Positions 2,612-29,289 of a DNA stretch of 30,005 nucleotides are shown in pieces (position 1 is the first letter of the stretch; the number at the start of each line of letters is the position of its first letter). Location of the stretch: IMG/VR virus record IMGVR_UViG_3300042453_004988, positions 1 through 30,005 of that record. One strand, written 5' to 3'. The notes below the pieces were generated by a model. That model ran no database searches. It was not told the DNA's origin and saw nothing but the letters and a program-made list of their open reading frames with translations. The position numbers and the translations under genes were made by a program. This stretch comes from a virus.

Positions 2612-2766
2612 TATACTTTCTTTACACCGTAAATTCCTAAAAATAATTTTAAAGTTAACCCTTTGCGTTGTGCAAAGAATTTTGCTGCTGATAATCTAGA
2701 AAAACTAATTGTTTTATCTATGATTTCTTGTTGTGGGTCATTTTTTCTATAGAAGCCGTATTTCAT
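2611..2766 (-). CDS. Small basic protein (51 aa) coupled on both sides
   Basis: A 51-residue ORF, MKYGFYRKNDPQQEIIDKTI onward, ending IYGVKKV. The central FSRLSAAKFFAQRKGLTLK stretch has a helix-turn-helix-like feel and small proteins of this type (..AA.FFA.RK...LK.FL.IY.V) appear in T4-like phages, though I cannot name a family. Both ends are TAATG junctions: its ATG overlaps the stop of the GT2 gene at 2766, and its TAA overlaps the start of the 128-aa gene at 2611. That double coupling is strong evidence that it is real. Confidence 0.7.
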   Translation of the reverse strand: MKYGFYRKNDPQQEIIDKTISFSRLSAAKFFAQRKGLTLKLFLGIYGVKKV

Positions 2767-3542
2767 TAGATATATTTTAAATTGTTTTCGGAATTGTGTC
2801 TTATATAATTACCCCACTTATAGTGAGCATATTCATGACCATTTTGTTCTGATTGTTGTCGTTTTAATTGTTTTTCAGGAGTATCGGTTGTTGATAATGA
2901 TACAAAATGATAAAAATGACATTCATATGTTCTTAACATTTTTAGTCCTGATAATTGACATTTTAAGAAAAAATCCCAATCCGCAACCATTCCCATTTCA
3001 TAATTTTCATCCCAACCTCCTAATCTTAAATAATCTATTTTAGACATAAATATAGGAAGAGTTGACCCGGAATCATCTTCTTGAGGGTAAGACATTTCTA
3101 AATCATGTTTCCAAAATGCTTCTAAATCAAATGTTTTTGGATCTCTACCCAAGTCATGTATTTTAAATTGTTTAAACATACTTGGATAAGGTTCAATCTG
3201 ATTAGGGGATATTACAACATTAGGACCATGTAATTCATAAATTGTTTCTAAAGTAGTATCCCATTTATTAGGAAAAACATTATCATCATTTACAATTAAT
3301 ATTTTATCATATTGAGCATTATAAACCCCCAAATTAGTTCCTCGACATAATCCAACATTTTCTTCTAAATTAAGGATACTAATATTATCTTTATATTTTT
3401 CAAGTACATCTTTATTTAAATCATAAAATCCATCAACTACAACTATGATTTGATTTATTTTTGTTTGACCATTGATAGCTGATCTAAGACACAGGTCTAG
3501 TGCTTCTGGGGATTTATATGTTGGTATAATTACTGAGATCAT
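2766..3542 (-). CDS. Family 2 glycosyltransferase (GT-A)
   Basis: At 258 aa this is a complete, single-domain GT2 enzyme, expected in the cytoplasm to transfer a sugar from a nucleotide-sugar donor. The sequence shows the N-terminal SVIIPTYKSPEALDLCLRS signature, the central IIVVVDG strand, the metal-binding DxD equivalent in ILIVNDDNVFP (about residue 85-90), and the acceptor-side LGGWDENYE and VADWDFFLK (catalytic base region). No membrane helices are seen, so it is not a processive synthase. It is the last gene of the glycan module, separated by a 52-base gap from the preceding glycosyltransferase, and is translationally coupled to the 51-aa gene downstream. Donor and acceptor are unknown. 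Confidence 0.85.
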   Translation of the reverse strand: MISVIIPTYKSPEALDLCLRSAINGQTKINQIIVVVDGFYDLNKDVLEKYKDNISILNLEENVGLCRGTNLGVYNAQYDKILIVNDDNVFPNKWDTTLETIYELHGPNVVISPNQIEPYPSMFKQFKIHDLGRDPKTFDLEAFWKHDLEMSYPQEDDSGSTLPIFMSKIDYLRLGGWDENYEMGMVADWDFFLKCQLSGLKMLRTYECHFYHFVSLSTTDTPEKQLKRQQSEQNGHEYAHYKWGNYIRHNSENNLKYI

Positions 3543-3594
3543 GACTTAATTTTATTTGTATTTAATATACATCCTTAATTTTACTTTTCCAAAT
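3543..3594 (-). other. 52-base gap in the glycan module
   Basis: This is one of the two longest gaps in the window. Reading along the minus strand it is A+T-rich and contains GTATATTAAATACAAATAAA just ahead of the GT2 start. It could serve as promoter or leader, but no consensus element is convincing. No hairpin-plus-U-tract terminator is visible. Confidence 0.2.
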
Positions 3595-4332
3595 TTATCC
3601 GTTAAGATGTTTTTCCCATTCTTTAACTAAATCATTTTGTTCTACTTTATATAATGGTGCTAACCAAGCTGTTTCACCATGGGTAGAATAAGTATTTAAA
3701 GGACATAACAAGGCTTTACCGTTATCCCTTAATTCTAAAAACATTTTAAAATCATCAGGATAATGCCCTTGATTAGTATATTTACGTAATGTTGGTTCGT
3801 CTTCTTTTAATGTTTTAACTGTAGAAGCAAAAGTCATAGTTGTACTATTAAACATACCAAATAGTTGTGTTTTGCCTCTATAGATCTTAGTCATATAACC
3901 CCCATCATGATCGACCTCAGGATTACCTCCTTGATAAGGTGAAATAAATTTATCAGGATGTAAATATAATGTTACATAACTACCTCCTAATTCTAAACCT
4001 TCTTTTATAATTTTAGGAGAACCCTGAAGATGAAGATAATCATTTTCTACAAAATAAATTATTTCATCATCTTCTCCTTTTAAAGCATAGTCTAAAGCTA
4101 AATTAAAAGTCCCAGCTCCGTGTCCTACTGATACTTGCTCTATATTAATGGGATCAATGTATTTTTTTATCATGCTTAAGGTATCAGCACTGCAATTATC
4201 TGCTATGATTTTGATATCATGTATGTGGTCAAAAAATACATTACAAAAATTTTTTAAACAATTTTCATTAGTAATATAATTTGGTTTAATTTTATTATAC
4301 CCGGCATCTGAAATTCTGTATATTATTTTCAT
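3595..4332 (-). CDS. Putative glycosyltransferase, GT-A-like (245 aa)
   Basis: The fold resembles GT2-like enzymes. It has an opening strand (MKIIYRISDAGYNKIKP), then a segment with a Rossmann-like strand and alanine/asparagine turn (IKIIADNCSADTLSMIKKYI). The candidate metal-binding acidic motif is in EIIYFVENDYLHLQGSP (about residues 90-106), and HGAGTFNLALDYAL looks like the nucleotide-side helix. A late HGETAW motif may belong to the acceptor site. It is a variant of the family rather than a textbook member, hence the lower confidence. Its ATG overlaps the stop of the methyltransferase upstream by one base. It probably acts with the other transferases here on one glycan. Confidence 0.65.
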   Translation of the reverse strand: MKIIYRISDAGYNKIKPNYITNENCLKNFCNVFFDHIHDIKIIADNCSADTLSMIKKYIDPINIEQVSVGHGAGTFNLALDYALKGEDDEIIYFVENDYLHLQGSPKIIKEGLELGGSYVTLYLHPDKFISPYQGGNPEVDHDGGYMTKIYRGKTQLFGMFNSTTMTFASTVKTLKEDEPTLRKYTNQGHYPDDFKMFLELRDNGKALLCPLNTYSTHGETAWLAPLYKVEQNDLVKEWEKHLNG

Positions 4333-4916
4333 TATTTTCTTTTAATTATAGTAAAACCATTATTATTTGTAAATCTCTCAACTAATTCCCACTTATCTTT
4401 ATTTTCTTTAAGAAATTCTTCAATAGCAGGCCATATTCCTTTTCCTGTTGTTTCTCCTTCCCAAGTATTTTCATGACCTTTAAATTCATCCCTAAATTCA
4501 TAAGATGTAGTATCATGAAAACAAATATACTTTTTAACTTTTTCAGAATGAAGTTCAAGTTCTTTTTTCAATTGATCATAAGCATGCCATGTATCTATAA
4601 ACAATAAATCTGTTTCTTCAATTTCAATTTTTAATACATCTGCAATTTTAAATTCAAAGTTAAGATTATAAGCCTTAGCTGTATCATATACGCTTTGTAA
4701 ATCGCCTCCCCATTTAGAAGGATCATGTATATCGTAACTTATTAATTTTTTAGGAGCGCATGCTAACCATCCCCAAGTTGAAAATATTCCTCTAACTCCC
4801 ATTTCAGTAATAGTATCACATTCACTTCCGTATTTTATAATAGCCGGGATGTGTTCATTTATGTCTGATGGAGTGTGGTAAAGTTGGTTTATTAGTTGTT
4901 CTAAATCGTGTATCAT
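4332..4916 (-). CDS. Class I SAM-dependent methyltransferase-like protein
   Basis: At 194 aa, this resembles the Methyltransf_24 / CmcI-like group often found in surface-polysaccharide clusters. The motif I region is TITEMGVRGIFSTWGWL (about residues 35-51). A strand ending in an acidic residue follows (KKLISYDIHD), then LLFIDTWHAYDQLKKELE and YICFHDTTSYEF, where D and H residues in this group can hold a metal. The family methylates sugars or small molecules. Its place among glycosyltransferases suggests sugar O-methylation, which is inference. It overlaps the GT9-like gene upstream by 4 bases (ATGA) and the transferase downstream by one. Confidence 0.7.
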   Translation of the reverse strand: MIHDLEQLINQLYHTPSDINEHIPAIIKYGSECDTITEMGVRGIFSTWGWLACAPKKLISYDIHDPSKWGGDLQSVYDTAKAYNLNFEFKIADVLKIEIEETDLLFIDTWHAYDQLKKELELHSEKVKKYICFHDTTSYEFRDEFKGHENTWEGETTGKGIWPAIEEFLKENKDKWELVERFTNNNGFTIIKRK

Positions 4917-5698
4917 AGATTATTTTTTACAATGTTAATATATTCATTTTCGGTTGCGTGTGGGTGAACAACAATATGTTTTGGATCAGCCCAGTAAGTA
5001 GGGAAAGGTTTAAAAGTACTCAAAAATTTTTCAGGATTTAAACTTTCTTTTTCCTTATAATTATGAGCTTCTCCTTGAGTTTTATAAAAAGTATATAAAT
5101 GTTGAGAATCACCTACAGTTTTAGTATTCATAAAAGCTGCTAGGTTTGTTGTTCCTCCTATCATTCCTAAATGTAGTTTACTATTTAATAATATTTTACC
5201 TGATTCAATGAGAGGGTCAGGATTATTGTCAAATCTATTTCCACCTACAGGAATTACTTTAATAATTTTACTTAATTCATTGACAATATTTTCAACATTA
5301 TATCCTGTTCTAAGTTGCCAATCATGATCATAAGTTATATAGTCAAAATCTGGTTTGTCTATGTTGTATTTATTTTTAAAAGATTTATCTAAGGGATAAA
5401 ATTTAGAAGCTCTTTCTAAATCTGCTCCTTCAATATTAAAACATTTAGCATAATCTAATAAAGGATGATCAAATACATCAATTCGTTGAGTGTATATTCT
5501 AGGTTCACAATTTTCAAAATCAATATGACCTAAAAATAAATGTGCTTGGATACCAAATAATTCTATAAATTTACCCATGAATGGCCATCTGTAGTATAAT
5601 TCAACGTCATAGCCCATATCTGTTAAATTTCTTACAACATTACAAGCTAGTAATGTGTCACCCATCCAACTATTTTCTAAAGATATTTTATATTTCAT
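4913..5698 (-). CDS. GT9-like (heptosyltransferase-type, GT-B) glycosyltransferase
   Basis: The N-terminus has the WMGDTLLACNVVRNL pattern of GT9 enzymes (usually GD.l...p....L), which transfer heptose or related sugars from ADP-heptose to lipopolysaccharide core. A distinct second half ends with SKLHLGMIGGTTNLAAFMNT, matching the GT9 donor-side loop that places D/S..h.H.A.A.g after a strand. At 261 aa it is shorter than typical bacterial members (about 320-350). The next gene downstream is the methyltransferase, and the gene just upstream is a heptose-kinase-like protein, so an ADP-heptose-type donor is possible. The assignment is to fold and family, not to donor. Confidence 0.6.
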   Translation of the reverse strand: MKYKISLENSWMGDTLLACNVVRNLTDMGYDVELYYRWPFMGKFIELFGIQAHLFLGHIDFENCEPRIYTQRIDVFDHPLLDYAKCFNIEGADLERASKFYPLDKSFKNKYNIDKPDFDYITYDHDWQLRTGYNVENIVNELSKIIKVIPVGGNRFDNNPDPLIESGKILLNSKLHLGMIGGTTNLAAFMNTKTVGDSQHLYTFYKTQGEAHNYKEKESLNPEKFLSTFKPFPTYWADPKHIVVHPHATENEYINIVKNNL

Positions 5699-5702
5699 AT
5701 TT

Positions 5703-6431
5703 TTAAATTAATGATACTCCTCTATATTTAACAACTTCTGAGGCGCATTCGTTAGCATATTTTATAGCTTTATCAATATTATTAGTATTTAAATAATTAA
5801 CTACTAAAGCAGCCATAAAACTATCTCCGGCTCCTGAAGTATCTTTAACATCTACTTTTTTTACTTTATATTTTTTAGATTGATACTCACATCCTTCTCC
5901 TCCAATAGTATGAATTATTTTATTTTTTAATTCTTCAGAAATATGGTCTTTTGTTCTTTGATATTCATAATCATTTATCTTAATAAATTGAGCTTTTGAA
6001 GCCCATTCACCTAATATTTTTTTAGTATCTATAAAAACTAAATCATGATTATTACAAATAGTTTCAATATCAGAAGTAGATAAAAATCCTTTATCATAGT
6101 CTGATATTACAATAATTTTATAATTGTAATCAATTTCATCTAAATTTATTCTTCCTATATTGTGAGGTGTGTCCACTCTAAAAAAAGTATGATTTGTTTT
6201 TTCATGAACATATCTTGTTTTAGTAATGTTTACCCAATTACTATTAGTAAGTATATCACAATTATTTATTTTATTTAAAATATTTCGTTGAACATTTTTA
6301 GCCATCCCTCCATTTTCAGTTTGATTTATAATATTAAGTACAGGAACGGGAACATCAGGACATAGTCGGAGAGCGTCGCAGTAGACAAAAATGTCTCTGC
6401 AACTTTCTCCTATTATTAAAATATCTTTCAT
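5703..6431 (-). CDS. PfkB-family sugar kinase, HldE/RfaE domain I-like
   Basis: About 242 aa from the ATG at 6429-6431, one base beyond the upstream stop; an in-frame start at 6455 would add 8 residues inside the neighbouring gene. The sequence shows LRLCPDVPVPVLNI, like the SRISPEAPVPVV segment of HldE. It also has the substrate-side NGGMAKNVQRNI (PfkB signature 1), VISDYDKG, and the ATP-site/catalytic-base DTSGAGDSFMAAL (PfkB signature 2). HldE domain I phosphorylates D-glycero-D-manno-heptose 7-phosphate at C1. The adenylyltransferase domain of bifunctional HldE is absent, and the protein is about 70 residues shorter than domain I of HldE. The exact sugar is not proven. Confidence 0.8.
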   Translation of the reverse strand: MKDILIIGESCRDIFVYCDALRLCPDVPVPVLNIINQTENGGMAKNVQRNILNKINNCDILTNSNWVNITKTRYVHEKTNHTFFRVDTPHNIGRINLDEIDYNYKIIVISDYDKGFLSTSDIETICNNHDLVFIDTKKILGEWASKAQFIKINDYEYQRTKDHISEELKNKIIHTIGGEGCEYQSKKYKVKKVDVKDTSGAGDSFMAALVVNYLNTNNIDKAIKYANECASEVVKYRGVSLI

Positions 6432-6432
6432 A

Positions 6433-7635
6433 TTAATATCTACTTTTTCTTTCAATAATGATTGCTGGGCGTTTGCTAGCGTATGCTCCTTTAAACGCTT
6501 TTAATACATCTACTCCAGTTACAGGATCCATTACCGGAAATTCAACTAATGTTTTTAATACATTTGTAAAATCTTGATGGTGTGTAGGTCCTGAATAGAA
6601 TGGACCACCAAAAGCTTCTACTGCTCTAATTATAATTGGTACTTTATATTCGCCGTGAGAAATACGTTCAATTTTATCAATATGATTTCCAATAGCATCC
6701 ATTGCTACTAACATAAAATCATGTCTTTCAAAATATAATACCGGAGTAAATCCTTCAAAGGACATTCCTATAGCCAAACCTGACATAAGATTTTCAGCCA
6801 CTGGGGTTTCTAATTTTTGGTCATTAGAAACATTTTTTAATGTGCCCATAGCATCACCTCGAGCAACATTATAACCAATGAATATAGCACCTTCTTTACC
6901 TAATTCAGTCATAGCTTGATTCATTGCTTCTTTATAACTAATATCCATTCCATCTAACTCTTCAAATTTAGGATATTCAAAAGGAGTTAATAATGGGAAA
7001 TATTCTTCATCTGTTTTCTTTGTAGTCTTAGATAAATCAATCATTCCAGGTTTACGACAATGAGGATAAGTAATATCATAATGATATTTAATAACTGAAG
7101 GTGAATTCCATGAATAATTAGCTGTTTTGCCCCATCTTTCGTCATTTGTAGCTTCAACTGAGCGATTATTATTTTCAATAATAAATTTACATGGTAAATC
7201 AAATCCATCAACATAACGGATAGCTTCATATGTATGTCCATTATCTTCAGTTCCATCACCAATAAAACACCATACTTTTTTATCTGATCCTTTACGTTTT
7301 AATGCCCAAGCTATACCTGCAGCGATTGCCGGAGTACCACCAATTATAGCTGAACAGAAAAAATTACGTTTACGGTCATATATAAACATACTACGACCAT
7401 CTAAAATTCTTTGTTCTACTACTTCTGGAGGTATTCCATGAAGTAAAGCGTGGTAATGACTTCTATGGTTAGATATAACATAATCTCCTTCTTTAATATT
7501 TTTAAAGATTTCAATCAATTCATCTTCATTACCTCCTGATAAGTGAAATAAAAAGGGTAATTTATTGTCTAAATACAAATCCCCAATTCGATCTTCGAAA
7601 GCAATAAGCTCTTCTTTAGTCCAAGTTTTTCTCAT
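6433..7635 (-). CDS. Compact thiamine-diphosphate enzyme: fused E1-alpha/E1-beta-like (transketolase-type order)
   Basis: This 400-aa protein joins two ThDP-fold domains. Residues 55-200 match E1-alpha of 2-oxoacid dehydrogenases, with HRSHYHALLHG (53-67), GGTPAIAAGIAWALK and the ThDP/Mg signature GDG (126-128) to ENNNRS (154-159). Residues 275-400 match E1-beta, with TPVAENLMSGLAIG, whose E281 is the expected cofactor-activating Glu, FERHDFMLVAMDAIGNHIDK, and GPTHHQDF (349-356). The protein ends at IIIERKSRY, where E1-beta normally continues with a C-terminal domain of about 120 residues. It is thus a minimal PP-Pyr unit. With no E2/E3 nearby and a sugar kinase and alcohol dehydrogenase as neighbours, it more likely makes an unusual sugar or polyol than an acyl-CoA. 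Confidence 0.8.
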   Translation of the reverse strand: MRKTWTKEELIAFEDRIGDLYLDNKLPFLFHLSGGNEDELIEIFKNIKEGDYVISNHRSHYHALLHGIPPEVVEQRILDGRSMFIYDRKRNFFCSAIIGGTPAIAAGIAWALKRKGSDKKVWCFIGDGTEDNGHTYEAIRYVDGFDLPCKFIIENNNRSVEATNDERWGKTANYSWNSPSVIKYHYDITYPHCRKPGMIDLSKTTKKTDEEYFPLLTPFEYPKFEELDGMDISYKEAMNQAMTELGKEGAIFIGYNVARGDAMGTLKNVSNDQKLETPVAENLMSGLAIGMSFEGFTPVLYFERHDFMLVAMDAIGNHIDKIERISHGEYKVPIIIRAVEAFGGPFYSGPTHHQDFTNVLKTLVEFPVMDPVTGVDVLKAFKGAYASKRPAIIIERKSRY

Positions 7636-8653: not shown

Positions 8654-9454
8654 TTATATTTGTATTATATTTTCGTTATTATTATGAAAATGACATATTC
8701 CTTCAATCATTATATTTTTATGACTTGGATCATGTATCTCTTGTTCATATACCCATTTTAATAAGGTACGATATTTTTTTAAAGAAACCAAATGTTCTTT
8801 AATTAGATTATTTCTTTTAACACATTGTTTTAAAAAATCTTCACAACTCCATCCTTGTATATATTCCCATATCCGTCCATTATATTCAGGAAGTTTAGAA
8901 ATTATTTCAAAAGTAGAATTTATATATTCTTTATTATTCAAATAATCTATTTTTGATGTGTTTATTATATAAAAATTAGTTTGAGGATAAAAATCTTCAT
9001 TAATTATTTTATCAAAATCAAAATTATAATTAACCATACCACCCCATCCTATTCCATTCATATAGTAAAAATCAGCTTCATTTATTTGTTGTTCTAAAAT
9101 TAATTCTTGAACAATAATATCGTTTGCTGATTTGCATATCCAATCAATGTTATTGGCTTTACAATAATCAATAATAGCATTATCATTATCGGCTGCTCCA
9201 AAACTATGTCCTCTACTTATACCTGTATCGATATGGATAGAATCAGAAAAATATTTTTTCCAAGTATTTTCTAATTGAAGTCTTAATTCCGGATCATTAC
9301 TAATATATGTTGTAGAAGTAATAATATTAATAAATTCTTTTAAAACTGGGAGGTTATAAATGATATATTGTTCTAAACGATTGATATCTTCTAGGGTACT
9401 TATATAACCTACAGAACCATAATAGCTTTTATTTATAATATCTTTTAAAATCAT
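8654..9454 (-). CDS. Putative glycosyltransferase of GT-A character (266 aa)
   Basis: No family matches cleanly. The region ISRGHSFGAADNDNAIIDYC (about residues 78-98) followed by NIDWICKSANDIIV looks like the nucleotide-binding part of a GT-A fold, where a helix precedes a hydrophobic strand ending in an acidic pair. A Tyr/Asn-rich middle and a WEYIQGWSCEDFLKQ segment follow. The gene overlaps the GT2 gene upstream by 4 bases and ends next to the alcohol dehydrogenase, so its setting is strictly glycan synthesis. I call it by context plus weak motif similarity. Other sugar-binding roles remain possible. Confidence 0.5.
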   Translation of the reverse strand: MILKDIINKSYYGSVGYISTLEDINRLEQYIIYNLPVLKEFINIITSTTYISNDPELRLQLENTWKKYFSDSIHIDTGISRGHSFGAADNDNAIIDYCKANNIDWICKSANDIIVQELILEQQINEADFYYMNGIGWGGMVNYNFDFDKIINEDFYPQTNFYIINTSKIDYLNNKEYINSTFEIISKLPEYNGRIWEYIQGWSCEDFLKQCVKRNNLIKEHLVSLKKYRTLLKWVYEQEIHDPSHKNIMIEGICHFHNNNENIIQI

Positions 9455-10083
9455 AATGTATTATAAAAGTTATTTTGTCGTTCTTGTCTATCAATTGTTT
9501 TAGGATGAATTAAATAACAATCTTCAAAACCCATATCTAAAGGTAAAGCTGAGTATGTTTTAAATCCATCTAAACGTTCATGAACTTTATTTATCCATTT
9601 TATTTCAGGTATATTTTTCCAAACACGCCATTGGTAATCCGGAAAATTAATCCATCCATTCTCATTTACTCTCCATCCCCATTTATTAATATGTTCTTGA
9701 GTTAAACCTTCTACAGTATTTACTCTTGGAATTAAATAAACTTCATTGTCAGGGTTAGCTTCTAATAATTGAGGTAATATTTCAATAAGCATAGAGGAAG
9801 GTACCTCATCAGCATCTATTTGAAATATATAGTCCTTAGTACATAGTGATGTTAATTTATTTTTAAATGAAGCGAAGTCATTATTAAACAGTACTCCAGC
9901 CCATTTAAAGTTTGGAGTACCAGTTAATGATGATATATAATTTTCAACTTCAGGAGTACCATTTTTAGTATCAATTAATACTACTACTTCATCGTCTTTA
10001 GATATATTTTTAAATAATACGTCTAATAAACGTTTTATTTCTTCTATTTCGTTACATACTGTAATTGCATAACTAATTGCCAT
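9451..10083 (-). CDS. Family 2 glycosyltransferase, WaaE/KdtX-like
   Basis: The protein has 210 aa. It opens with SYAITVCNEIEEIKRLLDVL, a GT2 start in which the nucleotide-sugar loop follows ITVCNE. The metal motif is FQIDADEVPS (about residues 88-97). WRVWKNIPEIKWINKVHERL (about 150-170) corresponds to the conserved R.w.....i.W...vHE segment of short, core-modifying enzymes such as WaaE. No transmembrane segment is visible. It overlaps the downstream gene by 4 bases (ATGA) and is separated by 37 bases from the zinc-ribbon gene. Donor and acceptor are unknown. Confidence 0.8.
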   Translation of the reverse strand: MAISYAITVCNEIEEIKRLLDVLFKNISKDDEVVVLIDTKNGTPEVENYISSLTGTPNFKWAGVLFNNDFASFKNKLTSLCTKDYIFQIDADEVPSSMLIEILPQLLEANPDNEVYLIPRVNTVEGLTQEHINKWGWRVNENGWINFPDYQWRVWKNIPEIKWINKVHERLDGFKTYSALPLDMGFEDCYLIHPKTIDRQERQNNFYNTL

Positions 10084-10120
10084 AATATTAAATGTACGAT
10101 TAATTTTTTATTTATCCAAG

Positions 10121-10588
10121 TTATTCTGGAAGTACTCCTATATAACTTAGAGCATCCATATATTCTTTTTCTTCAAAATGTTTAATAGTAGTCATATCCA
10201 TTCTCCATTCATAATATTGGCCTTCTTTTCCTTTAATTGGATATTTTTCTTTTTCTTCTTCTGTTACAGGAACAGCTTTAACTGCTGACCATTTCCAATT
10301 AGTTGCTTCATTCCCATTAACAAATACCATACCTTGTTGAGGTAAATTTACAGCTGAGGGCATCCATATTTTACCTTCTGAATCAGTATAAAATAAAGCT
10401 TTATAAATTTCAGGTAATATTTCTTTTTGTTCGTTATAAAATTGTTCTCCTTCTTTCATTAATGAGTTTGTAGTAAAACCACAACCCATACAGTGGTGTG
10501 TTTTAATAACACCACCATCAGTTGTAGGAATTTCATTTACAAAACAAGCATCTGAGCTGCAACGATCACATATTGTTAATTTATCCAT
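10121..10588 (-). CDS. Zinc-ribbon protein (155 aa)
   Basis: Residues 7-10 (CDRC) and 33-36 (CMGC) form a two-knuckle zinc ribbon in the first 40 residues, with HHCMGCGFTTNSLM as the second knuckle. The rest is Trp/Tyr/Glu-rich (IWMPSAVNLPQQGMVFVNGN, NWKWSAVKAVPV) and looks like a small beta-rich domain. I do not recognise a named family. It overlaps the GT4 gene upstream by 8 bases and so is embedded in the glycan module, but nothing in it points to a sugar reaction. A structural or protein-interaction role is as likely. Confidence 0.6.
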   Translation of the reverse strand: MDKLTICDRCSSDACFVNEIPTTDGGVIKTHHCMGCGFTTNSLMKEGEQFYNEQKEILPEIYKALFYTDSEGKIWMPSAVNLPQQGMVFVNGNEATNWKWSAVKAVPVTEEEKEKYPIKGKEGQYYEWRMDMTTIKHFEEKEYMDALSYIGVLPE

Positions 10589-11885
10589 TTGTTGTTTTAT
10601 TTAGTTTTGGTAATTCAATTTTTTTAAGTTGAGGTAATTTTAAAGCTATTTCTTTAGGAAATTCAGGAATATATTGATTAAATAAACGATCAATATCATT
10701 CTTCATTTCGTCCCAGTTAAATTTTTGTTTACTTCTATAAGCTTGACGTTTAGCTCCTTCAGTATAATTTTTATAATTTTCAAATATATCTTTTAAATAA
10801 TGACCTATTTGACTTTGATCTGGAGAAAACCATTGGCTATCCCTAAGTAAAAAATCATTTGCTGCACTTGGATGAACATTAGTTAATTGACCATCTAACA
10901 TTATATTAAATTCTTTTTCTAAAAAATCAGTATGTCCACTCCAATTTGTAGTTAATATTGGTTTTCTAACTAAACTAAATTCAAGTAATGGGCGTCCATA
11001 ACCTTCACCTTTAGTTAAATTAACCATTGCTTTTACTTTAGAATGATTATATAATTCATTCATTTCTTCATCTGAAAAATCTCCTAATAAAAGATAAATA
11101 TTTGGTAAATCTTTAGAATTAACTGTTTTCTTAATCATTTTAATACGTTTAAGAATTTCTTCTCTATCAACGTATGATGAACCGGCTAGCGCTGTTTTTA
11201 ATATTAAGGCCGGTTTCTTCGATTTATTTTTAAACGTCTCATAGAATGCTTTAATTAATAAACCAACGTTTTTTCTATCCTCACCTAGATCCCCTTGAAT
11301 CCAGTGTCCTACAAATAAGTAAGCAAAATCTTCTTTAATTGAATTTAAATCAATTGTTTTAATTTGATTTTGTTCTATTATTTTATAGATATTAGTATCA
11401 GCTCCTTCAAATAGTACTTCAACTGGTTTTTGCAATTCAACCATACCTTCAAGTTGGTTAGTTTGTTTATTACGTTTTTCAAATTTACTATCTTCAAATA
11501 CTTTTTTAGAATGTTTAGATGAAACTAAAGTTAGATTCATTCTATTTACACCTTCAATCCATTCAGGAGCACAAATAGTAGTTTCAATACCTGCTGTAAC
11601 ACCAATATTATATTTTCCTACTGGTTGGAACTCATTTGGAACTGTAATTTGCATCCAAATTTCTGGTTGTTTAGGTAATTGAGGTTGGTTTAAATTATAA
11701 TTGTATAAAAAAGACCATTCAGGATTGTCTTTACAAAATCCCCAAGCTGTTTGTCCCCAACGTTGAGGAATTAATTTTACATCATATTTGTTAGATTGTA
11801 TAATAGCTTTAATAACGTCTCTTGAACGAGCCCCATAACCTGAATATGTGTCGTAAGGTGATGATATGATAAATAATGGTTTCAT
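10581..11885 (-). CDS. Family 4 glycosyltransferase (GT-B), 434 aa
   Basis: The N-terminal Rossmann-like domain begins LFIISSPYDTYSGYGARSRD, where the glycine-rich SGYGARS is the usual acceptor-side loop. A long linker leads to the C-terminal donor domain with FAYLFVGHWIQGDLGEDRKN, then LTKGEGYGRPLLEFSLVRKP and TTNWSGHTDFL. The E-x7-E pattern (E of KGEG to E of LLEF) is the conserved donor-phosphate/ribose site of GT4. The enzyme is retaining in known family members. It is the second of two adjacent GT4 genes (the upstream one ends immediately before its start), suggesting sequential additions to one glycan. Confidence 0.85.
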   Translation of the reverse strand: MKPLFIISSPYDTYSGYGARSRDVIKAIIQSNKYDVKLIPQRWGQTAWGFCKDNPEWSFLYNYNLNQPQLPKQPEIWMQITVPNEFQPVGKYNIGVTAGIETTICAPEWIEGVNRMNLTLVSSKHSKKVFEDSKFEKRNKQTNQLEGMVELQKPVEVLFEGADTNIYKIIEQNQIKTIDLNSIKEDFAYLFVGHWIQGDLGEDRKNVGLLIKAFYETFKNKSKKPALILKTALAGSSYVDREEILKRIKMIKKTVNSKDLPNIYLLLGDFSDEEMNELYNHSKVKAMVNLTKGEGYGRPLLEFSLVRKPILTTNWSGHTDFLEKEFNIMLDGQLTNVHPSAANDFLLRDSQWFSPDQSQIGHYLKDIFENYKNYTEGAKRQAYRSKQKFNWDEMKNDIDRLFNQYIPEFPKEIALKLPQLKKIELPKLNKTTNG

Positions 11886-13319
11886 TTAGTATAACAATTT
11901 ATGGTTTATAACATTTGGTTTTATTTCATTAGTATTAATTAATTCGTATTTTTCTCTTGGTTTCCAAGTATTAAATAAAGTTGTAAAAGCTTCAATAACA
12001 CGTTTACCTTGCATTTTACCTGTAAAACCAGCTTCAGCACCTAATGCCCATTCTCTACCTTCTAATCCTCTACGTTTTAATTCTTCTCTACCTAATTTGT
12101 AAGCGTTCATAATTTGAACAGCTGCATCTTCAGCAGTACATCTATCATCCCAAATATAAGGGGTTGGAGGAGAACCTACAATTGATCTATTACTTGGAAA
12201 TACAGGAAATGCCCAGCTACCACATTCTTTAATTGTACCATTATGGTTTGAAGGAAAATCAGCATCAAAATCAACCCATCCACCATCAATAGAAAAACGC
12301 ATTTGATCTTGCATTCCACCTGTTACATTAGCAATAATTGGATTACCAGCTAAAATAGCTTCAGTTAAACTTAATCCCCATCCTTCATTTGATGTTAATA
12401 AAATTTGAGCATCCGTACAATTATATAACCAATTCATTTCCTGAGTACTGTATCGATTGGTAGAGAAATAAATGTTATATTGTTCTCCTTCTAATAATAA
12501 TTCTCTAACTGCTTCTAAATCGGTTCCATGTTCACTTACTATTTCAGTATGTAAAACAAAAGCACATTTTTTAGCCTGTTCAATAGGTAATTGATCTATA
12601 AACAATTTATAAGCTAACATAGTGTCAGGAATTTGTTTACGTCTAATATTTCTAGAGTTAAAGAATAAAACAAAATCATATTCTTTATTTCCAAATAATG
12701 CTTTTTTAAATTTAATTAATTCAGCATCATTTTTATCTAGTGGCTTCATTAATTCATGATTTAAACCATGAGGAACATATCTAATAACTTTATTTTTAGC
12801 TTTATCACCTAAAACTAATTTATTAATATTAACTGTTTGTTTTGAAATTCCCATTAATAAATCACAAGCATCATAATATGCTTTATTATAAAGAGGAGCA
12901 GGATAATCATCCCAAATATTCAAATATGCTATAGGAATATTTTTACGAATTTCATTTTCAATTTGGAAAATATGAATAAAATAACGAGGATCAGTAATTA
13001 ATAATATAGCATCTGGTTTTTCAAGATCAATAATGCTACGAATTAATTCTTGAGTTCCATAACCGTCTACAGGATAAACAAATACAGATGCATCCGTTAA
13101 ACCTGAGGTTTCATTAGTTGATTGGGATAGATCAAAACGTTTGCCAGCATCGGGATGTTTAATAGATCCACCTAAGCAAACCCAATTAAAATGTTGTGCT
13201 GTGTGTAAAACGATTTCTCTACCTACTGTAGCTACACCTGAGTGTACTCGAATATCGTCTGTAATTAGGAGAATTTTTTTCCTCTTCTCTGGAGGTAAAT
13301 ACATAAACTCTGAATTCAT
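11886..13319 (-). CDS. Family 4 glycosyltransferase (GT-B), 477 aa
   Basis: The N-terminus is KKILLITDDIRVHSGVATVG, a strand followed by the glycine-containing acceptor loop. The donor domain includes FDFVLFFNSRNIRRKQ-like strand and turn (FVLFFNSRNIRRKQIPDTML), then LTSNEGWGLSLTEAILAGNP and VTGGMQDQM. The E-x7-E motif runs from the Glu of SNEG to the Glu of LTEA. This is a classic GT4 signature. The protein is somewhat longer than usual, with an extra Trp-rich segment (about residues 365-400) before the C-terminal helix. It is the first gene of the glycan module and follows the RHH gene by 22 bases. Confidence 0.85.
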   Translation of the reverse strand: MNSEFMYLPPEKRKKILLITDDIRVHSGVATVGREIVLHTAQHFNWVCLGGSIKHPDAGKRFDLSQSTNETSGLTDASVFVYPVDGYGTQELIRSIIDLEKPDAILLITDPRYFIHIFQIENEIRKNIPIAYLNIWDDYPAPLYNKAYYDACDLLMGISKQTVNINKLVLGDKAKNKVIRYVPHGLNHELMKPLDKNDAELIKFKKALFGNKEYDFVLFFNSRNIRRKQIPDTMLAYKLFIDQLPIEQAKKCAFVLHTEIVSEHGTDLEAVRELLLEGEQYNIYFSTNRYSTQEMNWLYNCTDAQILLTSNEGWGLSLTEAILAGNPIIANVTGGMQDQMRFSIDGGWVDFDADFPSNHNGTIKECGSWAFPVFPSNRSIVGSPPTPYIWDDRCTAEDAAVQIMNAYKLGREELKRRGLEGREWALGAEAGFTGKMQGKRVIEAFTTLFNTWKPREKYELINTNEIKPNVINHKLLY

Positions 13320-17293: not shown

Positions 17294-18910
17294 CTAATAC
17301 ATTCCTCCCATATCTCCAAATCCTTGTTGGTCTTTCTTTTCTTCAGGTTTGTCAACAACGGTACATTCTGTTAATAAAATTGTTCCTGCTACTGATGCTG
17401 CGTTTTCTAAAGCGCAACGTGTTACTTTGGCTGGGTCGATAATTCCTGCTTCTTTCATATCAGTAAATGTTTCTGCTTTTAAATCCCATCCGAACCAATA
17501 GTCACCACCTGTAGCTGCATTAATAGCATTGTAAACATTTTCAGGTTCGTAACCTGCGTTTTCAAGTATTTTCTTAAATGGAGCCGCGCAAGCATTCCAA
17601 ACGATTTTAGAACCAATAGTATCGCGGTTATTAATACCGTTACGTGCGTGTAATAATGTAACTCCACCACCTGGGACAATACCTTCTTCAATTGCTGCTT
17701 TTGTAGCATGTAAAGCATCGTCAACACGATCTTTAGTTTCTTTCATTTCCGTTTCAGTGTTTCCACCAACATGGATAATTGCTACACCACCAATAAATTT
17801 AGCTAAACGTTCTTGTAATTTTTCTTGTTCAAATGGTGATTTTGCATTTTCAATTTGAATTTGTAATTCTTCAATTCGTTGATTAATTGCTGCTTCTTCA
17901 CCTTTACCATCAACAATAGTTGTATTGTCTTTATCAATAGTAGCTACTCTAGCTTTACCAAACCAATCAGTATTAAAACGATCTAATTTCATTCCTTTTT
18001 CAGAACTAACTACTTGACCACCAGTTAAAATAGCTAAATCTTCAAGAATTAATTTACGACGATCACCAAAGTCAGGAGCTTTAACAGCACATACTTTTAA
18101 AATACCTCTTGCTTTGTTTACAATCAAAGTTGCTAATGCTTCACCTTCAATATCTTCAGCTACAATCAATAATGATTTATTTTGAGCAGATACTGTTTCT
18201 AAAATAGGTAATAATTCTTTTACTTGAGTAATTTTTTTATCTAAAATAAGAACTAAAACATCATTTAAAGTACTAGACATTGTATTATTATCAGTAACAA
18301 AGTAAGGTGATTTATAACCACGATCAAATTGCATACCTTCTACTGTTTCAAGATATGTTTCACCTGATTTTGATTCTTCAATATGAACAACACCTTCACG
18401 TCCTACTTTTTGCATTGCCGTTGCAATTAACTCTCCAATTGCTGGGTCATTGTTAGCTGAAATAGATGCTACTTGTTTTAATTGGTCTTCAGATGAAATA
18501 TTTTCTTTAATTTCTTCACGAATGTGTTGTAAAACATCTTTAACAGCAATATCAATACTACGTTTAATTTCTACTGCGTTAGCTCCATTGTTTAAATAAG
18601 TTAAACCTTGTTTAACCATTTCTTGTGCTAATAAAGTAGATGTTGTAGTACCATCACCTGCTGTATCTGCTGTTTTGATAGCTGCTTGTTTAACCATTTG
18701 AACACCTAATTCTTCAATTGGATCTTCTAAGGTAATAGATTTAGCTACGGTAACACCATCTTTGGTTGATTGAGGGTATTCACCTGGTTTTGAAATAACA
18801 ACGTTACGTCCGTTAGGACCTAAAGTTGCAGTTACTGCATTTGACAATTTGTCAACTCCACTAGATAACTTTCTACGGGCTTCTGGGCCGAACTCTATAA
18901 TTTTACTCAT
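17294..18910 (-). CDS. groEL: GroEL chaperonin (538 aa, full length)
   Basis: A full-length bacterial-type chaperonin; E. coli GroEL is 548 aa. The ATP site is intact: TLGPNGRNVV (29-38), KDGVTVAKSI (D51), AGDGTTTSTLL (D86) and DRVDDALHATKAA with the catalytic Asp, followed by EEGIVPGGG. The apical domain has the usual SPYFVTDN and EDIEGEALATL. The C-terminus ends GFGDMGGMY, one GGM unit instead of E. coli's four. It is the large ring subunit that folds proteins in its cavity under the GroES lid. It follows groES by 10 bases. A complete GroEL/ES pair in a phage is uncommon and may serve capsid or replisome folding. Confidence 0.97.
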   Translation of the reverse strand: MSKIIEFGPEARRKLSSGVDKLSNAVTATLGPNGRNVVISKPGEYPQSTKDGVTVAKSITLEDPIEELGVQMVKQAAIKTADTAGDGTTTSTLLAQEMVKQGLTYLNNGANAVEIKRSIDIAVKDVLQHIREEIKENISSEDQLKQVASISANNDPAIGELIATAMQKVGREGVVHIEESKSGETYLETVEGMQFDRGYKSPYFVTDNNTMSSTLNDVLVLILDKKITQVKELLPILETVSAQNKSLLIVAEDIEGEALATLIVNKARGILKVCAVKAPDFGDRRKLILEDLAILTGGQVVSSEKGMKLDRFNTDWFGKARVATIDKDNTTIVDGKGEEAAINQRIEELQIQIENAKSPFEQEKLQERLAKFIGGVAIIHVGGNTETEMKETKDRVDDALHATKAAIEEGIVPGGGVTLLHARNGINNRDTIGSKIVWNACAAPFKKILENAGYEPENVYNAINAATGGDYWFGWDLKAETFTDMKEAGIIDPAKVTRCALENAASVAGTILLTECTVVDKPEEKKDQQGFGDMGGMY

Positions 18911-18920
18911 ATAACTTATT

Positions 18921-19211
18921 TTAATCGTTAATAATTGCTAATACTTGGTGTTCAGGACAAACGTAATATTCAATGCCATCATCTTCAACTTTTACAGGTC
19001 CCATTTGAGGTAAAATAACCTTTTGACCTACTTTTAATAATGAAGGCATTAGTTCACCTGTAGCTGAATAACTACCTGGTCCTACTGATACGATTGTTCC
19101 GCTTAAATTTCTTTCTTTTCCTAAATCGGGGACGATAATATTCCCGAACATTGTTTCCTCTTCATCGAAGGGCTTTACAATAATTGCATTGTAAACTGCT
19201 TGTAATTTCAT
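18921..19211 (-). CDS. groES: GroES co-chaperonin (96 aa)
   Basis: The 96-aa length equals bacterial GroES (97 aa). The opening AVYNAIIVKPFDEEETMFGN has the VKP strand; the mobile loop, which binds GroEL, is MFGNIIVPDLGKERNLSGTI with the IIV hydrophobic tripeptide. VVSVGPGSYSATGELMPSLL is the central beta region and QMGPVKVEDDGIEYYV the C-terminal strand pair. This is a true GroES, not the longer gp31 type of T4. It precedes groEL by 10 bases in the same transcript and follows the clamp gene by a 45-base gap with a promoter-like motif. Confidence 0.95.
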   Translation of the reverse strand: MKLQAVYNAIIVKPFDEEETMFGNIIVPDLGKERNLSGTIVSVGPGSYSATGELMPSLLKVGQKVILPQMGPVKVEDDGIEYYVCPEHQVLAIIND

Positions 19212-23612: not shown

Positions 23613-24248
23613 CTATTTCATTTTAGTTCCATTAACCTCAATTGCGTGTAAAAATTCTTCACGAATTAAATTATCTTTTTCCATAAACACACCACTAAAC
23701 TTATTTGTAGTCATTACTGAAGGGTGTTTAATACCTCTATGTGAACAACAAGTGTGTTTACAAGCAATACTAACTGCTACAGATGGACAATCCATTTTAG
23801 TAGCTAAGTAATCATGAATTTGTTGTGTTAATGACTCTTGCATTTGTGGACGACGACTAAACCATTCTACAATACGATTTAATTTAGATAATCCAATTAC
23901 GTTTTCACCTGGTATATAAGCTACAGTAGCAAATCCAGTAAATGCTAAGTTGTGATGAGCACACATACTAACAATAGGAATACCTGATTGAACTACTAAT
24001 CCACTATAACCTTCGTCATTAGGAAATACTGTAATATTCGGTTCATCTGTAATTGAACCCACGATTAAATCTTTTAACCATGCTTTAGCTACACGACGAG
24101 GTGTATCTTCGGTTTGACGATCTGCTTTGTAATCAAAACCTACTGCTGTGAGAAATTCACCATACGCTTCGGCTGCTTTATCAATCATTTGATTAACTTC
24201 GTCTTGTGTACGTGGTAAACTACCGTTTGATTTTTTTAATAACTCCAT
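23613..24248 (-). CDS. folE: GTP cyclohydrolase I
   Basis: FolE converts GTP to 7,8-dihydroneopterin triphosphate, first step of both folate and 7-deazaguanine synthesis. The 211-aa length is typical (E. coli 222). Visible signatures are EDTPRRVAKAWL (47-58), the zinc site SMCAHHNLAFTG (C96, H98, H99), VIGLSKLNRIVEWFSRR (117-133), and CKHTCCSHRGIKHP with H165 and the third zinc Cys C167. The usual CEHH is CAHH here, a change at a residue otherwise strongly conserved. With QueD, QueE and QueC nearby it most likely feeds preQ0 synthesis. A 51-base gap with a possible hairpin separates it from the thioredoxin gene. Confidence 0.95.
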   Translation of the reverse strand: MELLKKSNGSLPRTQDEVNQMIDKAAEAYGEFLTAVGFDYKADRQTEDTPRRVAKAWLKDLIVGSITDEPNITVFPNDEGYSGLVVQSGIPIVSMCAHHNLAFTGFATVAYIPGENVIGLSKLNRIVEWFSRRPQMQESLTQQIHDYLATKMDCPSVAVSIACKHTCCSHRGIKHPSVMTTNKFSGVFMEKDNLIREEFLHAIEVNGTKMK

Positions 24249-26057: not shown

Positions 26058-26888
26058 TTATACATTTAATGTTTTATCCCAAGCTGAGATGTGTAAACGA
26101 GTTAAACCACGGAATTTATATTTTTTAGCCATTTCTAAAACGAACTGAGTACGTTCATGGAAATCTGTTTGGCTATCTAGTCCTGGCATACAAACCACAT
26201 TGGCAAGAGGTATGCTAAATGGTACGATAAAGTCACGGAATATTTCTTGTACGTCTTCTTCATTGGATATAACAAATTTAAATTGGTAATTAGAATGTTC
26301 CATAATGCGTTTAATCGCTTCTGGTTTAATACGTTGTTTTTCAGTCATACCTGAGTTTGTTAACTTAGGTGAGCTATTGATTTGGTGTAGGTGTTCGAAT
26401 AAATTATCTCCAATTTCTACAGTGCCATTTGTTTCAATTTCACTATATGGTTTAATTGAATTATCCTGTTCGTACCAGTAAGTTAAGAAATTAGTAATTG
26501 CCTCTTGATGTCCTTTAATTGTAGGTTCACCACCAGTCCAAATCAAATGAATTGTTCCGTTTTTGATATCATCATAAATACCTTGTTCTTTCCATCTATC
26601 AATTAGATATTGAAAGTCTTTGTCTTCACCTCTCCAAGCCCATTGAGATGTACTATCACAAGTCCAAGTTGCTTTACCTTCTAGTTCTAAGTCACCTTTG
26701 AATATCTCACCGTCAGCTAATTCTTTCTCATTAATTAGCGCTTTTAAAAAACGGTTAGACATACCACAAGTTAAATTACATAAACCTAGTCTAATAAAGT
26801 AAGATGGAATACCTGTACTAATACCTTCTCCCTGTACTGAGTAGAAGTCACTACTAATAAGTAGTTTGTTTGGGTCTATTTTACTCAT
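26058..26888 (-). CDS. queE: 7-carboxy-7-deazaguanine synthase, radical SAM
   Basis: QueE converts 6-carboxytetrahydropterin to 7-carboxy-7-deazaguanine (CDG). At 276 aa it is a little longer than most members. The substrate-side SDFYSVQGEGISTGIPSYFI (13-32) is diagnostic, RLGLCNLTC gives the first two cluster cysteines (C37, C41), and IWTGGEPTIKG (116-126) is the SAM-binding GGEP motif. The third cysteine is not two residues on, as usual, but in ATWTCDS (C77), so a 35-residue insertion splits the motif. ETNGT (about 152) and FKFVISN (about 205) are also typical. The start of this gene overlaps the DnaJ-type zinc-finger gene upstream by 8 bases. Confidence 0.93.
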   Translation of the reverse strand: MSKIDPNKLLISSDFYSVQGEGISTGIPSYFIRLGLCNLTCGMSNRFLKALINEKELADGEIFKGDLELEGKATWTCDSTSQWAWRGEDKDFQYLIDRWKEQGIYDDIKNGTIHLIWTGGEPTIKGHQEAITNFLTYWYEQDNSIKPYSEIETNGTVEIGDNLFEHLHQINSSPKLTNSGMTEKQRIKPEAIKRIMEHSNYQFKFVISNEEDVQEIFRDFIVPFSIPLANVVCMPGLDSQTDFHERTQFVLEMAKKYKFRGLTRLHISAWDKTLNV

Positions 26889-28265: not shown

Positions 28266-29126
28266 TTATTTTTGTTTTTCCAAATAATCAGCAAGTACTT
28301 TTTCAGCGTGTGCACTAGCTGTTGCCCACGTTACAGGACCTAAATCTAAATCAGCATATGCTACTGGATCAGGACGACCTAATTTAATAAACGCTTCAAT
28401 ACGTTCTACTGATGCTGCTGATTTATAATCAGAATACCATTCACCGCCTTTAGAATTTGTAATGTATATTGGTTTATAACTTGTATTAGTACGTTTATAT
28501 ACTTCATCAAAATCTAAACCTAATTCCTTACAACATTCTAAACCATGTTTTAAGATATCAAATTTATCTACTTCTAAGAATGGAGTTGATATTGTTACTT
28601 TTTTAGAACCCCAATTACCTAATTTAAATGCTTCAAAATCAGCATCTCTAAATTCTTGTCTACAATCAGGATAAATTGAATGATCACCAGCATGTATTCC
28701 CATTGCAATAGTACATTCAGCATTATTTTGTTCAGCAATTGATAATGCTACTGCTTGGATAATAGATGCAAATATTTTATTACGATTAGGTACTACAGTT
28801 GCTTTCATATTTTCTTCAGCATAATGTCCTTCAGGAACATCACTTCCGCCTTCAACTAATGATGAATTTAATAACTGAGATAAACCATCTAATTTAATAA
28901 TTTGATGTCTTACTTTAGAATAATCTTTAGATAACCATCCTTGTGATGGATCTGAATTGATATATTCTACTAACGATGTTGCTCGTTCTAGTTCTATTTT
29001 ATGTTTTTGTCCATAATCAAAACTTAAACAAGTAACTTCATGTCCTGTAGATAATAGGTGGAGTAATAATGTACTTGAATCCATACCACCTGATAGACTT
29101 AGTACTGCGTATTTTTTATTTTTCAT
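28266..29126 (-). CDS. queC: 7-cyano-7-deazaguanine (preQ0) synthase, lacking the zinc cysteines
   Basis: QueC makes preQ0 from CDG, ammonia and ATP. From the ATG at 29124-29126, one base past the upstream stop, it has 286 aa; the longer in-frame start at 29162 lies inside the neighbour. The PP-loop ATPase site is LSLSGGMDSSTLLLH (9-23), followed by SFDYGQKHKIELERA, VPNRNKIFASI and MGIHAGDHSIYPDC (central substrate region). Standard QueC ends with a four-cysteine zinc site (SC...CG.C..C..R..AF). Here the corresponding stretch is TNTSYKPIY, EWYSDYKSAASVERIEAF, without a single cysteine. The R..AF end is kept, so the chain is not truncated. This is a zinc-free subtype. Confidence 0.93.
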   Translation of the reverse strand: MKNKKYAVLSLSGGMDSSTLLLHLLSTGHEVTCLSFDYGQKHKIELERATSLVEYINSDPSQGWLSKDYSKVRHQIIKLDGLSQLLNSSLVEGGSDVPEGHYAEENMKATVVPNRNKIFASIIQAVALSIAEQNNAECTIAMGIHAGDHSIYPDCRQEFRDADFEAFKLGNWGSKKVTISTPFLEVDKFDILKHGLECCKELGLDFDEVYKRTNTSYKPIYITNSKGGEWYSDYKSAASVERIEAFIKLGRPDPVAYADLDLGPVTWATASAHAEKVLADYLEKQK

Positions 29127-29127
29127 A

Positions 29128-29289
29128 TTAATGTTTTTTATTTGCAAAACGTCTAAATACATCTAAATTTGATTGGCTGATGTTGAATCGGTTGTCGTAA
29201 ATTTGTTGTAATACTTTTTTTAATTCTTCTTCAAAGGCAGGATTAATATCGCCTTGTGGTTTTTTATTAGAATGCAAGTTCATGTTCAT
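29128..29289 (-). CDS. Small hypothetical protein (53 aa)
   Basis: Not recognised. Starts MNMNLHSNKKPQGDINPAFE from the ATG at 29287-29289; a second ATG at 29281-29283 is equally possible. A longer reading begins with TTG at 29322, deep inside the upstream gene. The body is a helical, charged segment (EEELKKVLQQIYDNRFNISQ) and LDVFRRFANKKH. It overlaps the 81-aa gene by 23 bases and lies one base ahead of queC. No motif gives a function. Confidence 0.55.
   Translation of the reverse strand: MNMNLHSNKKPQGDINPAFEEELKKVLQQIYDNRFNISQSNLDVFRRFANKKH

Follow-up and report, generated by a model that had tools for sequence, protein, structure and literature searches.

What might a phage do with an E1/transketolase-like ThDP enzyme that ends before the usual C-terminal domain and is encoded between an alcohol dehydrogenase (ADH) and a sugar kinase? 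We addressed this question for a gene in a window of 30,005 nucleotides, the whole stretch of DNA analyzed here, which spans positions 1 to 30,005 of the IMG/VR virus record IMGVR_UViG_3300042453_004988 (Table 1). A sequence-only reading had located the gene as an open reading frame (ORF) at 6433-7635; the ORF is intact and encodes 400 aa, with its strand to be corrected to minus.

Table 1. Features of the enzyme and its surroundings, with positions in the window
Feature	Position	Strand	Details and basis
Minimal E1/transketolase-like ThDP enzyme (phrog_34187)	6433..7635	-	ORF, Pfam, PHROG, AlphaFold2 model
PP domain, E1-alpha-like, shortened after ThDP/Mg motif	7021..7635	-	~residues 1-205; profiles, model secondary structure
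Pyr domain, E1-beta-like	6436..6948	-	residues 230-400; Pfam Transket_pyr, VIA
ThDP/Mg motif GD-X28-N (G126-D127...N156)	7168..7260	-	residue conservation
Catalytic Glu281, Pyr domain	6793..6795	-	invariant in 69 fused phage rows and 26/26 cellular Pyr subunits
Arg304, family-specific invariant residue near F307	6724..6726	-	69 fused rows, 26 cellular subunits
His352, aligned to conserved E1-beta histidine of 1w85_B	6580..6582	-	no variation among 69 fused rows or 26 cellular subunits
Zinc-dependent MDR alcohol dehydrogenase, 337 aa	7640..8653	-	Pfam ADH_N/ADH_zinc_N
PfkB kinase, HldE-kinase-domain-like, shortened	5703..6455	-	TIGR02198 rfaE_dom_I E 6e-24, under cut-off
Downstream glycan island, overall	2766..5698	-	Pfam
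Family-2 glycosyltransferase, downstream island	2766-3542	-	Pfam
Methyltransferase-like ORF, downstream island	4332-4916	-	Pfam, weak
Two further ORFs without assignment, downstream island	within 2766..5698	-	Pfam
Upstream glycan island, overall	8654..13319	-	profile matches
Family-2 glycosyltransferase, upstream island	9451-10083	-	profile match
Two large GT4-like glycosyltransferase ORFs	10581-13319	-	first: weak profile match; second: from sequence
ORFs without assignment, upstream island	8654-9454, 10121-10588	-	

Domain architecture and fold

Pfam places E1_dh on residues 12-159 (E 1.8e-16) and Transket_pyr on residues 232-400 (E 5e-12), and because both lie above their curated cut-offs the match is not due to chance. 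The phrog_34187 profile matches the protein over its full length (residues 4-400 of 400, E 3.2e-212). The AlphaFold2 model, for which the input alignment held 26 relatives, is confident (pLDDT 87.5, pTM 0.91). In VIA-align, its residues 230-400 overlay E1 beta (1w85_B) with a Z of 20.7 and an rmsd of 1.9 A over 169 residues, and residues 3-400 overlay Escherichia coli transketolase (1qgd_A) with a Z of 19.5 and an rmsd of 3.1 A over 353 residues, covering target residues 4-523; on human transketolase the alignment reaches residue 477. These overlays show a chain made of PP and Pyr domains in transketolase order that stops before the C-terminal domain. The protein ends where this domain would begin in transketolase, and a stand-alone Transketolase_C domain (TkC, PF02780) was found neither in the window record nor in nine larger phage relatives. 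The sequence-only reading had described an E1-alpha-like first half with GDG...NNN, an E1-beta-like second half with E281, a fused PP-Pyr order and a compact ThDP enzyme lacking the C-terminal domain, and had proposed structure prediction as a check; each of these points was borne out, the cofactor residues being kept in the modeled fold.

By sequence, the protein is nearer to PDH E1 (91 bits) than to transketolase (31 bits; NCBIfam), with which it shares 13-17% identity in structural alignment. PDH E1 alpha and beta are its best Pfam and NCBIfam matches, yet all NCBIfam equivalogs fall far under their cut-offs (transketolase NF004559, 30.7 bits versus 488). The PP and Pyr domains, a GDX25-30N motif and the catalytic Glu that define a ThDP enzyme are all present, and the two E1 domains are there without Transketolase_C, just as the single PP-Pyr chain of a transketolase is there without TkC. 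A sulfopyruvate or phosphonopyruvate decarboxylase (SPDC/PPDC) would share the two-domain make-up but not the subfamily, since TPP_enzyme_C reaches only E 0.0014, under the Pfam cut-off, and TPP_enzyme_N has no Pfam match in the 400-aa protein. Shortening of the PP domain extends to the split relatives described below, in which the PP subunit ends ~45 to 70 residues past the ThDP motif, at ~190-220 aa, versus 320-360 aa for ordinary E1 alpha frames. We conclude that the phage protein is an intact but stripped-down E1/transketolase-type ThDP enzyme.

Its top matches to PDH E1 alpha and beta would suit a 2-oxo-acid dehydrogenase E1 that borrows E2 and E3 from the host to make acyl-CoA. The TkC domain is the E2-docking part of E1 beta, however, and the phage enzyme lacks both this domain and the C-terminal stretch of E1 alpha that bears the reductive-acylation loop. 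As claimed in the sequence-only reading, an E2 partner is also missing: no E2 acyltransferase domain (PF00198) was found in nine phage records of 108-287 kb that carry the gene, the window itself being a fragment. With TkC lost and no E2 encoded, acyl transfer to lipoamide is unlikely, and we regard a role in such a complex as highly improbable.

Conservation of cofactor and catalytic residues

The spacing of the GD-X28-N motif falls within the definition of the ThDP motif, GDX25-30N (PMC2831816). Across the 69 fused phage rows H31, H57, R58, D127, E137, R167, W168 and H192 never vary, nor do E281, R304, F307 and H352, and position 156 is N in 49 rows and D in 20. Cellular PP subunits keep D127 in 26 of 27 cases and N156 in 25 of 27, and E281, R304, F307 and H352 are kept in all 26 cellular Pyr subunits. 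An earlier assignment of H352/H353 therefore stands for H352 and falls for H353, which is replaced by S in 52 of the 69 rows. The position of R304 is not Arg in the aligned E1 beta 1w85_B; R304 is a mark of the family, with a putative role.

The phage family and its conserved gene partners

Known members of phrog_34187 occur in the cyanophages S-SM2 (ADO97531.1) and P-TIM68 (AIR93527.1) and match the window protein at full length, with 61.5% and 74% identity, respectively. Both have the same ADH neighbor, with an HldE-type kinase one or two genes further on, and both are annotated by domain alone as 'transketolase central region-containing protein' without an assigned function, the PHROG function label being 'unknown'. 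Among the IMG/VR loci fetched, 65 were fused phage loci, and dereplication left 37. A zinc ADH lies directly upstream of E1 in 35 of these 37 loci, and a heptose-phosphate-kinase-like gene lies at most three genes away, likewise in 35.

The window itself has the zinc ADH and the PfkB/HldE-type kinase on either side of E1, as had been noted from the sequence. The ADH is separated from E1 by 4 bases. The called kinase ORF and E1 share 23 bases, but the kinase start is probably the in-frame ATG at 6431, giving 242 aa, a common length among its relatives (242-255 aa). With these bounds (5703-6431, minus strand), the kinase falls ~70 aa short of the HldE kinase domain and keeps the GAGD motif and an N-terminal P(E/D)(A/V)PVPV-like stretch, so that a second shortened enzyme adjoins the shortened E1. 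The catalytic zinc ligands C38, H61 and C143 are invariant in the 62 phage ADHs compared; a TarJ-like ribulose-5-P reductase role was also considered but, as the best PDB matches of the ADH are ADH classes III and I, is no more than a possibility.

A heptose epimerase-like SDR usually follows (28 of 33 loci), as does a nucleotidyltransferase-like gene of 130 aa in 20 of 33. P-TIM68 has the order ADH-E1-kinase-HldD-like-HldE nucleotidyltransferase-like, with E-values of 2.8e-32 for the kinase against the HldE kinase domain, 2.6e-54 for the SDR against ADP-heptose epimerase and 2.2e-36 for the nucleotidyltransferase against the HldE adenylyltransferase domain; all three scores lie under the equivalog cut-offs. 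Neither the nucleotidyltransferase nor the heptose epimerase lies beside the ADH-E1-kinase trio in the window and one phage group, where activation may rest on the host. A second phage group (L005-L008, L011, L014, L016, L019, L024, L056 and L063) has a different, distantly related ADH (~38% identity) and kinase (~26%, ~313 aa), both upstream, and E1 is mostly 78-80% identical despite this exchange. That the trio persists although two of its members were exchanged argues that the three functions belong together.

No SIS_2 domain (PF13580, GmhA) was found in the nine large phage records (108-287 kb). Annotations of 'phosphoheptose isomerase' in P-TIM68 and S-SM2 (L079:17489-17827, L080:21998-22309 and L080:23639-23968) were considered as a GmhA partner and rejected, as PF13580 finds none in either genome. 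This annotation is probably wrong: neither Pfam nor NCBIfam has a match for the P-TIM68 ORF. By eye, the cluster related to these ORFs resembles a short HAD-type phosphatase.

Other arrangements were also observed among phages. The group L067-L076 carries the two subunits as separate genes ~3-4 kb apart (e.g., L067:5947-6585 and 9679-10227) with a GDM instead of a GDG motif, and the contigs L065:4382-6633 and L078 have the order Pyr - radical SAM - PP. A search of plasmid proteins returned mainly full-length E1 pairs at ~30% identity, all below 60%. Elsewhere in the window, the phage encodes GroEL (17294-18910, minus strand; TIGR02348 E 7e-212, above cut-off) with an adjoining GroES-like co-chaperonin (18921-19211, minus strand), as well as FolE-, QueE- and QueC-like proteins (23613-24248, 26058-26888 and 28266-29162, minus strand; all under equivalog cut-offs). 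The latter suggest a preQ0/deazaguanine pathway, perhaps used for DNA modification.

Cellular relatives and the origin of the fusion

The enzyme is not a phage oddity, since the family has two-subunit cellular members in bacteria and archaea. A genome scan recovered split or fused relatives in Prochlorococcus (a single-cell genome), desulfobacteria, Omnitrophota, Nanoarchaeota and Verrucomicrobiae. The short PP family occurs in 21 of 285 Omnitrophota genomes (E <1e-61), where the next matches are one contig-end fragment (9e-40) and then full-size E1 alpha from ~1e-35, and this gap in E-values sets the family apart from ordinary E1 alpha in the sampled phyla. The counts were 5 of 237 in the sampled Nanoarchaeota, 1 of 241 in Verrucomicrobiota and 1 of 297 in desulfobacteria (GTDB phylum sample). 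When a PP-domain tree is rooted with only two rows of ordinary E1 alpha, the short family forms a single group (support 100/100), and all fused rows group together with moderate support (81/78; 80% of bootstrap trees), nearest to archaeal and desulfobacterial pairs. The tree suggests one fusion event; besides phages, the fused form was found in one archaeal bin and a single Prochlorococcus genome.

Gene partners of the cellular pairs point to sugars as well. Omnitrophota commonly have the order PP-Pyr-SDR-SDR-B12 radical SAM-HddA-like-HddC-like-DegT, and of 20 regions compared, 18 contain the HddA-like gene; the names HddA, HddC and radical SAM reflect best NCBIfam matches, which lie under cut-off. 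The Verrucomicrobiae locus (L087) has the order HddC-HddA-PP-Pyr, and the conserved cluster of L118-L137 and L084 (Omnitrophota) and L087 resembles a so far undescribed pathway for a GDP-heptose-type sugar. In archaea and desulfobacteria the pair is adjoined by radical SAM genes, which are SPASM-type in the cases tested, and the Prochlorococcus contig has ADH-E1 beside genes that by eye look GmhB-like, HldE and HldD-like. Also beside the Verrucomicrobiae pair, at L087:11917-17031, are genes that we take to resemble the O-methyl phosphoramidate set of Campylobacter jejuni, presumably for a PEP-utilizing enzyme, a GATase, a nucleotidyltransferase and an APS-kinase-like protein.

This genomic setting bears on whether the gene acts as an auxiliary metabolic gene, with a transketolase activity that feeds the pentose phosphate pathway for nucleotides, like cyanophage TalC. 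The transketolase fold and a transaldolase gene in P-TIM68 would agree with such a role. We nevertheless consider it very unlikely: talC lies ~14 kb away in P-TIM68, phage copies are located in glycan islands, surrounded by glycosyltransferase and heptose genes, and the cellular family is likewise located in glycan clusters.

A proposed carboligase function

As the best explanation, we tentatively favor a ThDP carboligase that does not depend on E2: within a pathway for a heptose-type surface sugar, it would attach a two-carbon unit to a keto- or aldehydo-sugar. The diphosphate of Mg-ThDP would be bound by the PP half via D127/N156, with Glu281 and His352 coming from the Pyr half of the other chain. 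The active form is therefore most likely homodimeric, and heterotetrameric in the split relatives. Cofactor binding and carbanion chemistry are expected from the conserved residues and from what is established for ThDP enzymes. The two-carbon unit might be drawn from a 2-oxo acid, with pyruvate as a first guess, or from a ketose, and be joined to the sugar so as to build up its chain or branch it. The carbonyl would be made beforehand, or the new ketone reduced afterwards, by an oxidoreductase encoded alongside: a zinc ADH in phages, an SDR and a B12 radical SAM protein in Omnitrophota, and a SPASM radical SAM protein in archaea and desulfobacteria. An HldE/HddA-type kinase, plus the nucleotidyltransferase and heptose epimerase where present, would activate the sugar, and phage glycosyltransferases would place it on a host surface glycan. 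The constant pairing with an oxidoreductase and a heptose-type kinase fits such a scheme of C2 addition with a heptose-type sugar as scaffold.

Precedents come from the alphaKADH2 enzymes, E1 alpha/beta-like ThDP pairs of sugar clusters that work outside dehydrogenase complexes. KbDH-alpha/beta, a two-subunit E1-like enzyme, was assayed in vitro on pyruvate and ketones; AviB1/AviB2 and Pau11/Pau12 make C2 branches on keto-sugars according to genetics and proposals, and in paulomycin, where the pair likewise has an oxidoreductase partner, a ketoreductase acts on the C2 branch afterwards (PMC12247030, PMC4425429, PMC4753412). For miharamycin, split-gene transketolases were proposed for the same C2 addition, after an oxidoreductase makes the ketone. 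The subunits of alphaKADH2 enzymes are full-length (Pau11 325 aa, Pau12 345 aa) and serve antibiotic pathways with deoxy-keto-sugars, whereas the phage enzyme lacks TkC and part of the PP domain and has heptose-type genes beside it. YerE (yersiniose) and ErwE are also ThDP carboligases making branched surface sugars in LPS clusters, but belong to the decarboxylase superfamily (YerE is a flavoprotein) and are not E1-like. The earlier expectation of a sugar or ketose product instead of acetyl-CoA thus holds for the sugar context, with a ketose as just one option; closer precedents exist for adding a C2 branch to a keto-sugar.

Some observations count against a carboligase. The nearest of its partners is a kinase that acts on free sugar phosphates, while the acceptors of the full-length AviB1/B2-type pairs are nucleotide- or glycosidically bound keto-sugars; the window and one phage group have no nucleotidyltransferase or heptose epimerase next to the trio; and a make-up of PP and Pyr only is also typical of decarboxylases such as ComDE and RhiEF. 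A non-oxidative decarboxylase would release CO2 from a 2-oxo acid that might itself derive from a sugar, and the resulting aldehyde would be turned into an alcohol by the ADH, which suits aldehyde reduction. The known PP-plus-Pyr-only ThDP enzymes are indeed decarboxylases, acting on sulfopyruvate and phosphonopyruvate as two short subunits (PMC12141560), but they belong to another ThDP subfamily, and the phage sequence stands on the E1/transketolase side. Decarboxylation would also leave the heptose-type kinase unexplained, and no 2-oxo-acid genes (KDO- or phosphonate-type) were noticed alongside on casual inspection; we find this function improbable.

A minimal transketolase would instead transfer the ketol unit (C1-C2 of a ketose phosphate) to an aldose phosphate to make a heptulose or ketose skeleton, which the ADH would then change in oxidation state and the kinase phosphorylate. 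The shared single-chain PP-Pyr order and whole-chain overlay (Z 19-20 over 350+ residues) argue for this, as do partner heptose-phosphate kinases from two unrelated families, HldE-like and HddA-like, and the lack of GmhA in the large phage records. The phage enzyme differs from TktA and human TKT in lacking their C-terminal domain. However, its sequence is nearer to PDH E1, the host's own transketolase already yields sedoheptulose-7-P, and the isomerase step of GmhA is not supplied by a zinc ADH, which together make a transketolase unlikely.

Conclusions

The phage family was already known, though without an assigned function, and its cellular two-subunit form had, as far as the searched library shows, gone unremarked; the searched literature contained no account of a phrog_34187-type enzyme family, which is not proof that none exists. 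It is possible, and we suggest it with caution, that these enzymes form an undescribed family of minimal E1-type ThDP carboligases, which in Omnitrophota, DPANN archaea, Verrucomicrobiota and desulfobacteria consist of two subunits (~200 and ~180 aa) and in T4-like phages are fused. Their products would be a new class of C2-branched or C2-extended heptose-type sugars, by which phages would change the surface glycans of their hosts. Members of this family are widespread among aquatic viral contigs and have to date been annotated by domain only; the proposal gives them a testable role. If the proposed function holds, the enzyme would be one of the smallest E1-type carboligases and could serve as a compact catalyst for the synthesis of tertiary alcohols or long-chain sugars, and an undescribed heptose-type sugar would occur in phage-modified surface glycans, Omnitrophota and DPANN archaea.
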